Source: Pseudomonadota bacterium (GTDB lineage: Bacteria > Pseudomonadota > Gammaproteobacteria > Burkholderiales > Rhodocyclaceae). From it: a DNA stretch of 64,000 nucleotides. The notes under the pieces were generated by a model. It saw nothing but the letters and a program-made list of their open reading frames with translations, had not been told where the DNA came from and searched no databases. Below are positions 49,525 to 55,003 of the stretch, piece by piece. The position numbers and the translations under genes were made by a program. Every line of letters begins with the position of its first letter. Position 1 is the stretch's first letter. Location: assembly GCA_018241725.1 (NCBI GenBank), contig JAFEDI010000019.1, positions 1 to 64,000 of the forward strand, given 5' to 3'.

Positions 49525-49572
49525 TCCATGCACGCCCCGTAGGGCGCCAGCCATTTGGCCCCACGAAAAGAA

Positions 49573-49602
49573 GAAGCCCCCGGCAGTGTGCCGGGGGCTT
49601 CT
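49573..49602. terminator. Bidirectional terminator between ettA and the porin gene
   Basis: A strong stem (gaagcccccggca/tgccgggggcttc) with a T-run on one side and an A-run on the other serves ettA and the convergent cytochrome operon. Confidence 0.85.
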
Positions 49603-49625
49603 TTGTTTGGCGCTTCAGGAAACGC

Positions 49626-51755
49626 TTAGAACGAATGCAGCAGCGACAGGCCGATTATCTGCGTGACCTGATCCGGCTTCACGAAGACCTTGGTGCCGTC
49701 CGCATACACCCACTGGGACCAGGTGTAGTCGTCCATCTTGCGCAGGTCGTAGATGTAGTCCAGGCGCACGCGGGTTTGCTTGCTGACCGGGTAGGTTGCG
49801 TTCAGCTTGAGGGTGTTCTGCGTGTACTTGGTATCCGGCAGCACACCCATGCCCGACGCCACGACCCCTGTCGTCGTGCAGGTTGCGTTGGTGCAGGTGG
49901 TAGCCGGCAGGTTGCCGATCAACTGCTTGTTGGTGTCCTGGGAGTACAGGAACTGGGCACCAACATCCACCATCTTCACCTTGCCATTCACACCCAGACC
50001 GAACTGGTCGGAGTTCTGCTTGAGCGTCGCATCCCATTGAATGAGCGTGCCGGTGCGGAAGGTATTGACCGTGCAGTTGCTGTTGTTGCCCGTGGTACAC
50101 GCCGCGCCCTGCATGTTCTGGGACGACTCACCCAGTTGCTTCGAGTACCAGGCGTTCAGCTTCCAGATGTCACTGACTGCATAGGTACCGTCCAGGGACA
50201 GCACCTGCCCCTTGCCCTTGTCGAGGCCGTAGGTGCTCTTGCGGTAGTCGTCGAAATAGGCTTCATACGCAAGCTGCAGGTTCAGGCTCTCGGTCGCGCT
50301 CCAGTCGAGCATGCCGCGGACCTTGTCGCGATTGCGGTCGGCCAGGTACACCGGATAGATAGGAGGCGCGCTGGCACCGAGCCAGTCCGACCCCGTGCGC
50401 TCGGAGTGGGCCAGCGACAGCGTGCCATTCACCGTCTCGCTCATGGTCTTGCGCAAGGCCAGGCGAGACGTGGTTTCGGAAACCCGGTGGCGCTCCCACT
50501 CGAGGCTGCTCTTGTCGTAATAATCGAAACCGGCGGTCACGCTGTAGCCGCCACCGATCCGGTAATCCGCTTCGAGCTTGCCCCAGTTGGCCACGTGGGA
50601 CTCGGGGTTGTTGTAGTAATTGGTCGTCACGCCGGCGCTCGTGGTGGTGGCGAACAGGCGAATCGGCGTCTTGTCCTGCCGGTCCTCGTAGCGCCAGGAG
50701 GCCAGCAGCTTGAGGTCCTTGTTGATCCGCGAGGTGATCGACGAGAAGACTTCGGTGGTCCGCACCACACCCATCAGGTTTTCACCGATGCCCGGCAGGG
50801 TCGCCTGCCCGCTCAGGAAGGTGTCGTCCTGGCGGCCTTCGGAGTAGGACACCTTCAGACTCGCCCGCGTGTCCTTCGTGAAGTTGTAGGCGCCATTCAC
50901 GTAGAACTGCTGCACCGAGTTGTCCGGCGCCAGCGCGATCGGCGACAGGCCCGTCGCCACCAACGCCGTGTTGGTGCCCGGCACCACGGTCAGCGAACTG
51001 TACTTGGTGCTCAGGAAGCTGCCGTAATAACCACCGGTGAGCTGGTACTTTTCGGTGGTGTAATCGACCGTGGCCTCGAACTGCTTGTGGTTCTGGTCGA
51101 TGGGCTCCGGCGAGAACAGGAAGCCGCTGTACAGGTTGGGCGTTCCAGAGCCAGCCACGCCGCGCACGCCGTCCATGCGCGTACCGGTCTTGTCCTCGTT
51201 CTTGAACGAAAAACCCAGCTTGAGCCCCTCGGCAACGAACTTGCTGGCGGTCAGCGTGGTGATGTCGCGCTCGGTCTTGAGGGTGACGTCGTAGGCGTTC
51301 GGATTGTTGGCGGACACCGCCGTGCTGGCGATGTTGGGCTGCACGATGGTGTTGCGGCCGACGCCCTGCACCGCCGTCGTCACGTCATAAGGAGCGTAGC
51401 GCGGGATCTGGTCATAGCTGAGGCCCAGTGACCAGTCGCCCTGCTTCTCGTAGCGGATGCTCAGCTCCTGGGTGCGCAGGCCGAGATTGCGGGCGTTCAG
51501 TTTGAACCACTTGGCTTCCTCGTCGCGGCGCACCACGTCGATGTCCACATTGCCGTTGAAGCCCTCGTTGTTCACGCCGCTGTACTGGCGGTACAGCGGG
51601 TTCACCGCGCTGTAGTACGGCAGGTTGAGCGCCGCCTCGGTCTTGTTGGGGCTGGTCAGCTCCTCGACTTCATCCGCCCACACGCTGGCGACCGGAAACA
51701 CCGCCGACAAGGCCATGACGATGGCGGTCTGCCGGAAATTCAGATGCTTGCTCAT
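49626..51755 (-). CDS. MtrB/PioB family decaheme-associated outer membrane porin
   Basis: A 709-residue outer-membrane beta-barrel with a signal peptide (QTAIVMALSAVFPVASVWA) and a C-terminal aromatic residue (SLLHSF) as in barrel proteins. The mature N-terminus (ALNLPYYSAVNPLYRQYSGVNNEGFNGNVDIDV) and alternating amphipathic strands match the MtrB/PioB/MtoB family. These porins sheath a decaheme cytochrome to carry electrons across the outer membrane. The N-terminal CxxC of Shewanella MtrB is absent. ATG at 51755 has GAGGAGG upstream; the Met two codons earlier sits too close. It is the last gene of the operon. Confidence 0.92.
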   Translation of the reverse strand: MSKHLNFRQTAIVMALSAVFPVASVWADEVEELTSPNKTEAALNLPYYSAVNPLYRQYSGVNNEGFNGNVDIDVVRRDEEAKWFKLNARNLGLRTQELSIRYEKQGDWSLGLSYDQIPRYAPYDVTTAVQGVGRNTIVQPNIASTAVSANNPNAYDVTLKTERDITTLTASKFVAEGLKLGFSFKNEDKTGTRMDGVRGVAGSGTPNLYSGFLFSPEPIDQNHKQFEATVDYTTEKYQLTGGYYGSFLSTKYSSLTVVPGTNTALVATGLSPIALAPDNSVQQFYVNGAYNFTKDTRASLKVSYSEGRQDDTFLSGQATLPGIGENLMGVVRTTEVFSSITSRINKDLKLLASWRYEDRQDKTPIRLFATTTSAGVTTNYYNNPESHVANWGKLEADYRIGGGYSVTAGFDYYDKSSLEWERHRVSETTSRLALRKTMSETVNGTLSLAHSERTGSDWLGASAPPIYPVYLADRNRDKVRGMLDWSATESLNLQLAYEAYFDDYRKSTYGLDKGKGQVLSLDGTYAVSDIWKLNAWYSKQLGESSQNMQGAACTTGNNSNCTVNTFRTGTLIQWDATLKQNSDQFGLGVNGKVKMVDVGAQFLYSQDTNKQLIGNLPATTCTNATCTTTGVVASGMGVLPDTKYTQNTLKLNATYPVSKQTRVRLDYIYDLRKMDDYTWSQWVYADGTKVFVKPDQVTQIIGLSLLHSF

Positions 51756-51770
51756 GATCATCCTCCTCGC

Positions 51771-52754
51771 TCAGCGGAAGAAGCGGAACGGGCCGCTGGA
51801 CGTCGCATTGCTGGGGCTGTTGCTGCCATGGATGTTGGTATGGCAATTCATGCAGCCGCGTGCCTGGGCCATGCCCGGACCGATATTGGTGCTGACCGCG
51901 TTGGGCATGTTGCTGCGCACGCCCGGGATGTTGCCTGGGTGCGAGGATTCGCCGTGGCACTGCTGGCACAGGAAGGGCTGGCGTGCCTTGAGCATCGCGT
52001 CCGCCGTGGTGCCGTGCGGGTTGTGGCAGTTGCCGCAATCCTCGACGACCGGCTGGTGGTTATGCACGAAGGGGCCGCGCTTCTCGGCGTGGCAGGTGTA
52101 GCAAGTGGCGTTGGTGGAGTCCTTCACCAGCATCTTCGGACCGGCGGAACCGTGCGCATTGTGGCAGTCCGAGCAGGTCATCTTGCCTTCGGGGATCGGG
52201 TGGTGCGACGGTTTGTTGGCCTCGGCGCGCTGCTGCTTGTGGCAGGTGTAGCAGACTTCCGCCTGAGTACGCTTGTCGCGGACCTTGTCCTTGCCGGCAT
52301 GGACCTGGTGGCAGGAGGTACACGAGACATCCCGGTTGGCGTGGGCGCTGGTATTCCAGTTGATGTGCTTGCCGCCCTGGTGGCAAGTGATACAGGCTGC
52401 GCTCTTCTCATCGGCGCTGAGCTTCGAGGACTTGCCGAAGCTGCGGTCGGTGGCCGGGCGTTCCTTCAGTTTTTCGGGGTTGTTAACGTGCTTGTCGCTG
52501 TCACCGTGGCAGCTGGTGCAGCTCGGCGTACGGCCGTCGGCCAGACTGCCGTGCTTGGTCTTGCCAATGTGGAGCAGCTTGGGTTCGTCGCTCTCGTCGT
52601 GGCAGGACGTGCATTTGGCATCGCCCTTCAGCACGAGATCCTTGGCGGGCGGCTTGCCGCCGCTCGTCGGGGCATCGGCCGCCAGCACGGCGGTGCTGCC
52701 CGCCAACGCCCCAAGCACCATGCATGAGGCGATCAGCTGTCGCAGAAATTTCAT
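51771..52754 (-). CDS. DmsE/MtrA-type decaheme c-type cytochrome
   Basis: A 327-residue periplasmic protein with a signal peptide ending near VLAADA and exactly ten CxxCH heme motifs: CTSCH, CTSCH, CITCH, CTSCH, CYTCH, CSDCH, CYTCH, CGNCH, CQQCH and CMNCH. Length and heme number match DmsE, MtrA, MtoA and PioA-core cytochromes, which insert into an MtrB-type porin. It is followed 15 bp later by that porin gene, so the two make a porin-cytochrome conduit. Direction of electron flow is not set by the sequence. Confidence 0.95.
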   Translation of the reverse strand: MKFLRQLIASCMVLGALAGSTAVLAADAPTSGGKPPAKDLVLKGDAKCTSCHDESDEPKLLHIGKTKHGSLADGRTPSCTSCHGDSDKHVNNPEKLKERPATDRSFGKSSKLSADEKSAACITCHQGGKHINWNTSAHANRDVSCTSCHQVHAGKDKVRDKRTQAEVCYTCHKQQRAEANKPSHHPIPEGKMTCSDCHNAHGSAGPKMLVKDSTNATCYTCHAEKRGPFVHNHQPVVEDCGNCHNPHGTTADAMLKARQPFLCQQCHGESSHPGNIPGVRSNMPNAVSTNIGPGMAQARGCMNCHTNIHGSNSPSNATSSGPFRFFR

Positions 52755-52764
52755 GTTGTTTCTC

Positions 52765-52822
52765 CCTGGTACTACCTGGTACTACCTGCGTTGTCCGGGA
52801 TGCCCTGCAAGTCGGGCATCCC
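52765..52822 (-). promoter_or_regulatory. Tandem 11-mer and hairpin upstream of the decaheme gene
   Basis: Plus-strand cctggtactac is repeated twice in tandem (about 52765-52786), just upstream of the decaheme gene's GGGAG, followed by a 9-bp perfect stem GGGATGCCC/GGGCATCCC (52797-52822). No T-run follows, so it may be an mRNA-stability or partial-termination element inside the operon. Confidence 0.4.
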
Positions 52823-52833
52823 ACCCGAACGGT

Positions 52834-53184
52834 TTACTTGCCGAGGGACAGGATCCAGTCGGTCAGATTCTTGATCTCGGCCTTGTCCTTGGTCTTGAGG
52901 ACCTTGTGTTCCTCTTCCTTGCCATCATCGAACTTGACCATCTCGCCGGAGGTGAGGTGATGCAGCAGCTTGGCTTCCGCATCCGGTTTGCCCTTGAAGG
53001 ACTTGGAGATTTCGGTCAGGGACTTGGCCTCCTTCTTCTTGTCCACCGCGTGGCACTTGGTACAGCCTTCCTTCTTGGCCAGGGCCTGGGCGGCATCGGC
53101 ATCGAAGGCGAAGGCTTGGGCGGACAGCATCAGACCGGATGCGCAAAGGCCGGACACCAGCACTGCAGTCAGTTTGGATTTCAT
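52834..53184 (-). CDS. Periplasmic monoheme cytochrome c
   Basis: A 116-residue protein with a signal peptide (VLVSGLCASGLMLSAQAFA) and one heme motif CTKCH near the start of the mature chain. The distal Met ligand probably comes from the SGEMVKFDD region. This is a class I cytochrome c of about 10 kDa, suited as a diffusible shuttle between the inner-membrane cytochrome pair upstream and the decaheme protein downstream. AAGGAGAG precedes the ATG. Confidence 0.9.
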   Translation of the reverse strand: MKSKLTAVLVSGLCASGLMLSAQAFAFDADAAQALAKKEGCTKCHAVDKKKEAKSLTEISKSFKGKPDAEAKLLHHLTSGEMVKFDDGKEEEHKVLKTKDKAEIKNLTDWILSLGK

Positions 53185-53231
53185 GTGCGACTCTCCTTGA
53201 GGATGTTTATTGCTTGAGTTGGAACGGGAAA

Positions 53232-53846
53232 TCAGTGTTCGTACCAGCCGCTGATCATCATCTTGAACAGGCTGGAAACCTTGGGCCCCATGGTGCCCAG
53301 GTAGATGTGGCTGACCGCGAACAGCACGATCGCCGCGGCGCCGAGGTAATGGACCAGGGCGATCGGCAGCAGGCCGTCGAGGCCGAACAGGCGGTCGGGG
53401 GCGAACTGCGGGTATAGGAAGATCAGCCCGGTGGCGATGACCACCGGCAGCACCAGGTACATGATCGACCAGTAGGTGACCGCCTGCAGCGCGTTGAAGT
53501 TGACCTCGGGGGTCGGCGGGAAGGGCTCCTTCTCGCCCTTGAAGATGCCTGAACCGTAGTACTGCATCTGCTTGAGGCAGCGGCCGATGATGCCGGGCGG
53601 CTTCGGCACGTACTGCCACCAGTTGCCGGTGACGATATTGCCGACCACGAAGACCACGTACAGCCCGGCCAGGCACACACCAGCCACGTTGTGGATGCGG
53701 GCAGCCAGAGAGAACTCCACCAGCGGGAGGTCGGGGTTGGAAAAGTGCAGGCTCACCCCGGTCACCGCCAGCACGATGATCGCCAGCGCATTGCTCCAGT
53801 GCCACAGGCGGATCCACAGGGGCAGCATGAAAACGCGATTAGTCAT
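53232..53846 (-). CDS. Inner-membrane b-type cytochrome (HydC/FdnI-like)
   Basis: A 204-residue protein with about four membrane helices and four well-placed His residues: H16 (LWHWSN), H52 (RIHNVAG), H166 (LVHYLG) and H180 (VSHIYLG). This pattern allows two b hemes as in the cytochrome b subunits of Ni-Fe hydrogenases, formate dehydrogenase and thiosulfate reductase. It probably exchanges electrons with quinone. It overlaps the heptaheme gene by eight nt, pointing to a complex of the two, similar in parts to Geobacter CbcL (multiheme c plus b in one chain). Confidence 0.88.
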   Translation of the reverse strand: MTNRVFMLPLWIRLWHWSNALAIIVLAVTGVSLHFSNPDLPLVEFSLAARIHNVAGVCLAGLYVVFVVGNIVTGNWWQYVPKPPGIIGRCLKQMQYYGSGIFKGEKEPFPPTPEVNFNALQAVTYWSIMYLVLPVVIATGLIFLYPQFAPDRLFGLDGLLPIALVHYLGAAAIVLFAVSHIYLGTMGPKVSSLFKMMISGWYEH

Positions 53847-54807
53847 GGTTCTTGCTCCTGCGCATGCGGGTGGTGATGATGCGGACCAGGCCGTGGCCGA
53901 TCACGCCGACGACGATGGCGACGAACAGGCCGATCACGATCCAGTCGATGGACGGGTTGCGGGTCGCTCCCACCACATACGAATTGCTGAGGATCACGCT
54001 GTTGAGGAAGCCGTACTTGTTCTGCTCTTCTTTAGCCAGGTGGCGGTAGAGGCGCGCATTCAGCGACGTGTTGGCGCTGTGGCAGGTGGCGCACTTCTTC
54101 TCGGCCTTGTCCTTGTTCAGGATCTCGTGGGACAGGGACAGCTTGTCTTCCGTCGGTGTGTGGCATTCGATGCAGCGCACGGCCTGCCAGTGCAGACGGG
54201 TGTTGGGCAGCCAGCTGTGGATCTCGTCGATGGGCGGACGCTTTTTCTTCTCCGGTGCGATCTTGGCGAAGGCCAGGTCGGAATCGTGGCAGTCCAGGCA
54301 GATCTTGTTGTCCTGGGCCACGATCTTGTGCGGGTCGCGCAGCTTGGCAGCCAGCGTCATCACGTGCGGATCGTGGCAGGTCGAGCAGGTGAAGCTGTCG
54401 CTGAGATGCTCGGCATGCACGGACTTGTCGAACTGGCGCTCGATGCGCATCGCCTTGCGGGCGTGGCAGTCCTGGCATTCACTCAGACCTTCCTTGGCCT
54501 TGGCGTCGTGGGGATGCTTGTCATAGCCATCGCCATGACACTTGCTGCATGCCATCTGCCCGTGATCGGATGCCGTAAAGGTATCCGGATCGACGAGGTA
54601 GTTACGCAGCTTTTTGAGATCCAGCCCTTCCTTGGGTGGCTTCTTGAGCCCTGCTTCCGAGTGACAGGTCAGGCACTCGGCATTGGCCGTCTTGATCTTG
54701 GCCAGCTCTTCCGGCGTTGGGGGGGGATCGTCGGCAAATGCCGTGGCAGTCAGCATGACCAGCAAGGCCAAGGCGCCGCACAGCTTGTTCTTGAAATTGG
54801 CAAACAC
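53839..54807 (-). CDS. Heptaheme c-type cytochrome with C-terminal membrane anchor
   Basis: From GTG at 54807 (AGAGGAAA upstream) the protein has 322 residues and a signal peptide (LCGALALLVMLTATAFA). It has seven CxxCH motifs: CLTCH, CSKCH, CQDCH, CSTCH, CLDCH, CIECH and CATCH. A single membrane segment near the C-terminus (WIVIGLFVAIVVGVIGHGLV) is followed by basic residues. So the heme domain is periplasmic and anchored from its C-terminus, unlike CymA/NrfH proteins, which use an N-terminal anchor. The overlap with the cytochrome b gene suggests a quinol:cytochrome complex. First gene of the operon, behind an FNR box. Confidence 0.9.
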   Translation of the reverse strand: MFANFKNKLCGALALLVMLTATAFADDPPPTPEELAKIKTANAECLTCHSEAGLKKPPKEGLDLKKLRNYLVDPDTFTASDHGQMACSKCHGDGYDKHPHDAKAKEGLSECQDCHARKAMRIERQFDKSVHAEHLSDSFTCSTCHDPHVMTLAAKLRDPHKIVAQDNKICLDCHDSDLAFAKIAPEKKKRPPIDEIHSWLPNTRLHWQAVRCIECHTPTEDKLSLSHEILNKDKAEKKCATCHSANTSLNARLYRHLAKEEQNKYGFLNSVILSNSYVVGATRNPSIDWIVIGLFVAIVVGVIGHGLVRIITTRMRRSKNHD

Positions 54808-55003
54808 GTGATTTCCTCTGAATTCCGACCGTCGAATTATCGGTGCGTCCCGTTTTGTCAGAACATTTCGATACACATGAAATGCACTCACCTTGATCAA
54901 GATCAAGGTCTGGCGCGACTCTGTAAGCATTTATGCGACACCGGCATGCTCTCCGGAATAGGTGTTTCCCCACCCCCTTGTCAAGTTTTCTCCATGACAT
55001 CCG
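54808..55003. other. Promoter region of the cytochrome operon
   Basis: This 196-bp gene-free stretch carries the FNR/ANR site and, downstream on the minus strand, a TGTGTATCGA sequence that could act as an extended -10 at about the right distance for an activator centred near -41.5. Confidence 0.5.
54893..54906 (-). promoter_or_regulatory. FNR/ANR-type anaerobic activator site
   Basis: TTGATCAAGATCAA is a perfect match to the FNR consensus TTGAT-N4-ATCAA. It lies 86 bp upstream of the GTG of the first operon gene, so the cytochrome operon is probably induced when oxygen is low. Confidence 0.8.

Follow-up and report, generated by a model that had tools for sequence, protein, structure and literature searches.

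A probable anaerobically induced, modular electron-export conduit in Zoogloea

In which direction, and for what purpose, would a cell move electrons through a set of cytochromes and an outer-membrane porin that are encoded together behind one promoter of the FNR type? This question is raised by five genes in the 64-kb stretch of DNA analysed here, positions 1 to 64,000 of contig JAFEDI010000019.1 (the window), whose source genome belongs to the genus Zoogloea. An earlier note, made from the letters of the window, had described a Rhodocyclaceae-type genome with one operon for a heptaheme c-type cytochrome, a b-type cytochrome, a monoheme c-type cytochrome, a decaheme c-type cytochrome and a porin, in this order, behind a perfect FNR box. 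This description stands: the five genes are all present, contiguous and on the minus strand, and a complete path from quinone to outer membrane is encoded behind a conserved FNR-type promoter. The operon is read here, with a probability of about 0.6, as an anaerobically induced, modular electron-export conduit of Zoogloea, whose function would most likely be the oxidation of quinol under anoxia and the export of its electrons to extracellular acceptors. The cluster itself is not a discovery, and the view that the combination was uncharacterised has to be given up, because the same five kinds of genes are reported, in the account of the cluster given there, from a Zoogloea metagenome-assembled genome (MAG) enriched on an anode (Biofilm 2021;3:100054; PMC8258643).

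The five-gene operon and its promoter

The genes run from 54807 to 49626 and are tightly packed, the start of the b cytochrome gene overlapping the stop of the heptaheme gene by 8 bases. The features of the operon are listed below.

53839..54807, minus strand: heptaheme c-type cytochrome, 322 aa, with seven CXXCH and one C-terminal membrane helix
53232..53846, minus strand: FdnI/PhsC-like b-type cytochrome, 204 aa, with four long helices (PF01292)
52834..53184, minus strand: monoheme c-type cytochrome, MtoD homologue by its match to 4xxl_A, 116 aa
51771..52754, minus strand: decaheme c-type cytochrome of the MtrA/MtoA/DmsE family, 327 aa, with ten CXXCH (TIGR03508)
49626..51761, minus strand: outer-membrane porin of the MtrB/PioB family, 711 aa (PF11854, TIGR03509)
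54893..54906, no strand assigned: FNR/Anr box, TTGATCTTGATCAA on the minus strand, centred at about -70 from the predicted start of transcription
54836..54841, minus strand: -10 element GATAAT

The heptaheme gene starts at the GTG at 54807, which stands behind GAGGAAAT and is kept in relatives; the ATG at 54930 given by an open reading frame finder was rejected, as it stands ahead of the FNR box.

The window has no exact box other than that at 54893-54906. By itself, a single box is within chance at one mismatch, at which the window holds two matches against 0.67 expected and 19 of 100 shuffles reach two. The box is convincing because it is conserved across the loci of the genus (with which L002 and L003, from genomes G094 and G232, are counted): in 13/13 readable loci, a box with no mismatch (6 loci) or one (7 loci) is found between -99 and -104 relative to the start of the heptaheme gene, the 14th locus, L006, being cut short and excluded from the count. 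Over all 47 loci tested, 0.12 loci with a box would be expected by chance, the shuffles preserving base composition only. Among the other 34 loci, a box occurs in the same reach in two (L063, L072), and outside the genus only L063 has it at the genus position. An alignment of 14 upstream regions shows an invariant TTGAT half, a second half of either ATCAA or GTCAA, and variable flanks. Moreover, GATAAT or CATAAT stands 57-58 bases from the box centre in all 14 sequences, window included, the spacing of box and -10 element being fixed in the window and the 13 readable relatives. A box near -70 of the predicted start approximates the class I spacing of promoters controlled by FNR and CRP. Judged from this promoter, the operon is probably switched on without oxygen by FNR/Anr.

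Inner-membrane pair, outer-membrane unit and their exchange

The distal half of the operon is of the Mto type, because the monoheme protein is, by its sequence, homologous to MtoD of Sideroxydans: among solved structures, 4xxl_A is its closest match (E 3.8e-30), and PDB entry 4XXL is the bis-His MtoD of Sideroxydans, with a potential of +155 mV (PMC4412085). The decaheme protein scores 284.4 bits with TIGR03508 (DmsE family; cut-off 192.2), and the porin 425.7 bits with PF11854, MtrB_PioB (E 4.5e-127; cut-off 23), and 332.9 bits in a near full-length match with TIGR03509 (cut-off 240.05). The two proteins match chains A and B of 6r2q, which we take to be the MtrABC complex of Shewanella baltica, the decaheme protein matching 6r2q_A with E 2.9e-71. 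Enzyme genes dmsA and dmsB are absent from the cluster, and in the operon, which has five genes only, no surface decaheme MtrC stands beside mtrAB. On contig C46 of the same genome, a 614-aa nine-heme cytochrome (L116:8764-10608) passes the cut-off of PF22113; as a surface partner it was rejected, being found in only 3/23 genomes of the genus.

A monoheme protein of a new kind, as had been supposed, is likewise not at hand. In 8 of 19 mtoA loci, hand-chosen from the family-wide mtoA matches, mtoD-mtoA-mtoB is followed by one protein of 582-668 aa with 7-8 hemes and 4-5 predicted membrane helices (some starts uncertain), read as MtoC as that protein is described in PMC6295460. Taken together with the MtoD homology, these loci show that the window holds an Mto-type cluster with a different, two-gene quinone module in front. 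Next to mtoDAB in L117, L118 and L122 stands a b cytochrome of 267-268 aa with no multiheme quinone protein beside it (PF01292 tested for L117), possibly another quinone partner.

Within the two-gene module, the heptaheme protein would be the electron exit of the inner membrane, and the invariant His and Arg near the end of its membrane helix (304 and 308 in 321-aa numbering) perhaps make contact with the b cytochrome or with quinone. The b cytochrome matches PF01292 (E 5.1e-23) and has the FdnI fold, with all four heme-ligand His positions and the N..Q motif; its best NCBIfam model is PhsC, below the cut-off. Two b hemes are expected, an assignment supported by the four invariant His, and the protein is the candidate quinone site. 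The idea that the pair is a split MtoC was rejected, the kinship not being borne out by the BLAST control or the b-protein profiles. The heptaheme protein matched MtoC with a best E of 6e-8, against 2.7e-7 for MtoA as control, and hhalign gave a probability of 98.4% without an MtoA-type control. The b protein matched the b half of MtoC at 22% identity with a best E of 4e-5, most of the eight being weaker, and its profile found 0/8 MtoC by hmmsearch and reached 14.8% in hhalign.

In the family, the heptaheme gene occurs in 39/395 genomes and an mtoA relative in 106/395; each of the locus pairs L016/L054, L018/L081 and L019/L082 stems from a single genome present in two copies. In the genus, heptaheme gene and mtoA are both present in 13 of 21 genomes and both absent from 8, and are thus co-present or co-absent in 21/21; the heptaheme gene is also present in G782, a genus genome outside this sample. 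Throughout the 14 genus loci, the pair is followed by mtoD, mtoA and mtoB, the mtoA of L008 being in two pieces in different frames. In the order-level sample, reaching beyond the family, the pair was found in 1/399 genomes, namely the window's own, and the named collection yielded one relative (43%) in an uncultured Rhodobacteraceae MAG (L020), besides three weak matches (L021-L023) that the counts leave out.

Outside the genus, 26 genomes carry the heptaheme gene, and in 10 of them no mtoA relative was found at E 1e-30. The fetched stretch holds MtrA/MtrB relatives in nine; in eleven it holds an EB_dh protein and no porin; the other six have other contents or are cut by a contig end. Genus g8 supplies four of the nine (L058, L059, L063, L064), in which heptaheme-b-mtoD converges with a 10-heme gene, mtrA and mtrB, the 10-heme gene (715-846 aa) being MtrC-like by position and heme number only. 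In ten genomes, an EB_dh of about 320-362 aa stands behind the b gene (by Pfam for L072, the others being 59-79% identical to it), and an mtoA relative lies elsewhere in four of these (G151, G211, G286, G320); G335 has mtoD plus another EB_dh (Pfam). The earlier note had seen the pair as dedicated to the porin and had named its conservation without porin genes as a refuting result, which is what the neighbourhoods of the eleven genomes contain. The pair thus appears from its gene neighbourhoods to be a more general quinone module. For Zoogloea, a part in extracellular transfer is not thereby refuted.

Three EB_dh loci (L065, L070, L073) continue with an ArrA-like molybdoenzyme, that of L070 and L073 being 85-86% identical to that of L065, and all three have RGRY, a motif of the ArrA type, GRGWG being that of the ArxA type (PMC6549141). 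These loci possibly encode a system for arsenate respiration in which CymA has no part. In L020 and L076, heptaheme-b has a different molybdopterin protein and an Fe-S protein as neighbours. Upstream of heptaheme-b-EB_dh in L072 (5873-8982), reading of the sequences suggests a sensor kinase of ~580 aa and an NtrC-like regulator of ~455 aa, and similar gene lengths are seen upstream in L066, L067, L070, L071, L074 and L075.

The history of the operon was followed in trees of mtoA (45 rows), mtoB (45 rows) and the heptaheme gene (41 rows), built with minimum lengths from L002-L018, L054-L076 and L117-L135. In the mtoA tree, other genera separate the 15 genus rows into two groups, both of them clades at 100/99: ten rows of the window type (window, L002-L004, L009-L013, L015) and a second group (L005-L008, L014) that is 61-64% identical to the window in mtoA and 30-32% in mtoB. 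In the mtoB tree, among the rows listed, L005-L008 and L014 stand together at 100/100. In the heptaheme tree, the 15 genus rows, 80-98% identical within the genus, form one clade (99/100) in which the mtoAB types are mixed, L014 standing beside L015 at 100/98. The same gene kinds, by length and place, flank both mtoAB types where a locus reaches the flanks, and the two distant types lie behind the same heptaheme-b-mtoD genes in different species. Because the mtoAB clades are split, the heptaheme genes form one mixed clade and the flanks are the same, mtoAB would have been exchanged in place while the heptaheme and b genes stayed; on these trees, at least one such exchange within Zoogloea is firm. 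A second was not accepted as firm, as it hinges on L015, an 11.9-kb MAG contig on which the heptaheme match falls in two frames: in the joint check of heptaheme, b and MtoD, two changes are forced with all rows and only one without L015, where the best tree needs two and 2% of bootstrap trees need one.

In this half of the heptaheme family, MtoD travels with the inner unit, because the mtoD tree splits by partner with no exceptions: 27 rows have heptaheme-b as neighbour, and 15 have MtoC or another partner (99/98, 100% of bootstraps). The 27 include rows with MtrCAB or EB_dh instead of MtoAB; in the ten EB_dh loci, the b gene was not seen to be followed by mtoD.

In the window, the operon has two ABC-type genes and one MOSC gene as neighbours, and a perfect 15-bp G+C-rich hairpin, read from the sequence between the converging ABC gene and mtoB (49571-49603), is probably a two-way terminator. 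Genome L156 lacks the operon, and there the MOSC and ABC genes that otherwise flank it adjoin each other at a distance of about 78 bases; five further loci without the operon showed no ABC gene of this kind within the 1.5 kb covered. The five proteins are closest to those of MAG locus L002 (97-100% identity), the closest named relative being Zoogloea sp. LCSB751 (L004, 91-97% across the five proteins). Isolates that carry the operon include Z. oleivorans Buc and Z. dura G-4-1-14 (L006 and L011).

Direction of electron flow

The evidence leans to export over oxidation of Fe(II). In the proposed mechanism, FNR/Anr would turn the operon on without oxygen, and the b cytochrome would take electrons from quinol, probably ubiquinol, at a site that most likely faces the cytoplasm, in the manner of formate dehydrogenase-N working in reverse. 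The quinone site of FdnI lies on the cytoplasm side, and in PhsC the membrane potential lets electrons go outward; by analogy, an FdnI-like site would let the membrane potential pull electrons outward. They would pass two b hemes to the anchored heptaheme protein, from which the MtoD-like protein, or the heptaheme protein directly, would hand them to decaheme MtoA inside the MtoB barrel for release outside the cell, where they might be accepted by humics, by chelated Fe(III) or by an electrode, for example. Heptaheme, b and MtoD would form a general quinone module, and MtoAB an exchangeable outer unit. Ubiquinol is suggested as the donor because no MqnA was found in the genome and the MenA and MenD matches are below cut-offs. 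Export is favoured by the FNR-type control, by the FdnI-like quinone site, by the related pairs beside ArrA-like enzymes and by the lack of a RuBisCO match. In addition, the Zoogloea MAG with these kinds of genes is reported to have risen from 0.01 to 7.2% of reads, 720-fold, on an anode at +400 mV, and earlier links of Zoogloea to AQDS are cited in the same account (PMC8258643).

Several points weigh on the other side. The lack of a surface MtrC-like cytochrome in the operon is also the MtoAB layout of Fe(II) oxidisers. MtoD of Sideroxydans ES-1 is reported to interact with neither MtoA nor ImoA (PMC13390432), for which reason the monoheme protein may be no shuttle here; a bc1 complex could also feed MtoD. 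The anode MAG represents one enrichment and not a mutant. The heptaheme structure model is poor (pLDDT 60). That ubiquinone is the only quinone made is likely rather than proven. With 909.9 bits, the ArrA-like enzyme of L065 falls short of the ArrA cut-off (1600). The cluster has two separate genes and no fused MtoC; outside the cluster, no search for MtoC/CbcL was made in the genome.

The strongest competitor, clearly less probable than export, is electron uptake, in which Fe(II), a mineral or a cathode would supply MtoAB with electrons, and the pair would reduce the quinone pool during denitrification, as proposed for the Mto system of Sideroxydans. The order mtoD-mtoA-mtoB with no adjacent MtrC is the Mto layout, and modules of the CbcL/MtoC type are thought to be bidirectional (PMC6295460); nap genes are present in the genome. 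However, besides the missing RuBisCO match and the ArrA-like neighbours of related pairs, the sole growth observation is that on an anode (PMC8258643), and inward flow to an FdnI-like cytoplasm-side site would oppose the membrane potential and leave little driving force for donors near the ubiquinone potential.

It is rather improbable that the conduit is a redox valve that rids the cell of surplus electrons at low oxygen, without supporting growth, by passing them to soluble oxidants outside it such as humics, flavins or iodate. Its patchiness in the genus (13/21) and the empty site of L156 suggest a dispensable trait, and MtrAB without MtrC would suit soluble acceptors; against this, the conserved promoter and the heptaheme identity within the genus suggest regular use, and such substrates rest on no direct evidence. 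Very improbable is a pair serving mainly another periplasmic reductase with mtoAB as a passenger, for although the eleven porin-free EB_dh genomes (three with the ArrA-like enzyme) and the exchange of mtoAB would suit it, the pair is followed by mtoD, mtoA and mtoB in every genus locus, pair and mtoA come and go together, and the exchange swapped one mtoAB for another.

Export thus remains the preferred reading, through which Zoogloea, a sludge and freshwater denitrifier, gains a defined and testable electron-export operon. A wider generalisation, decidedly tentative, is that heptaheme-b-MtoD may be a portable quinol-oxidising module whose FdnI/PhsC-like b subunit would use the membrane potential outward, so that ubiquinone-based bacteria could respire acceptors below the ubiquinol potential. 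The terminal devices into which the pair would plug are MtoAB, MtrCAB and an EB_dh protein combined with an ArrA-like reductase; the outer device of Zoogloea would have been swapped at its site at least once, and perhaps several times, behind an inner module that stayed. If the membrane potential drives the module, the reduction of low-potential extracellular acceptors by ubiquinone-based bacteria would be explained. The exchange of an outer-membrane conduit behind a kept inner module is also a natural experiment on which contacts matter in electron-transfer chains of this kind.

Comparison with known systems

In the account of the Zoogloea MAG cluster, three of the genes are without a characterised homologue, and to what is set out there the present analysis adds the promoter, the MtoD assignment, the FdnI-type fold, the occurrence of the pair with other partners among relatives, and the swapping of the outer unit (PMC8258643). 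No description of a heptaheme-b pair with MtoAB beyond that one was found in the open-access library that was searched. With the Mto system of Sideroxydans lithotrophicus ES-1 (MtoD, MtoA, MtoB and CymA/ImoA), the operon shares mtoD, mtoA and mtoB, with a decaheme protein plus porin. The tetraheme CymA/ImoA is replaced here by a heptaheme c and a b cytochrome, and the operon has an FNR-type promoter in a genome with no match to RuBisCO. The operon encodes no CymA/ImoA (NapC/NirT) protein, the single match in the genome being NapC-like and part of the nap cluster.

The mtoD-mtoA-mtoB-mtoC clusters of the family (MtoC of Dechloromonas aromatica is described in PMC6295460) have the same outer unit and monoheme protein, and their quinone module (CbcL/MtrH/MtoC) likewise joins a multiheme c and a b-type cytochrome. 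As a single protein of about 580-670 aa, however, MtoC is encoded after mtoB, whereas here two genes stand in front of mtoD, and the mtoD of the window belongs to another clade than that of MtoC-partnered mtoD. A quinone module that is neither CymA, ImcH nor fused CbcL/MtoC would be missed by marker searches built on those. Compared with FdnI of formate dehydrogenase-N and PhsC of thiosulfate reductase, the partner of the b cytochrome is here an anchored heptaheme c and not the Fe-S and molybdenum subunits. In Geobacter, CbcBA is encoded by separate genes and carries seven c hemes. Likened by description, CbcBA of Geobacter sulfurreducens, whose partners differ, is the closest functional analogue of the pair (PMC10553843, PMC6148476, PMC12307469).

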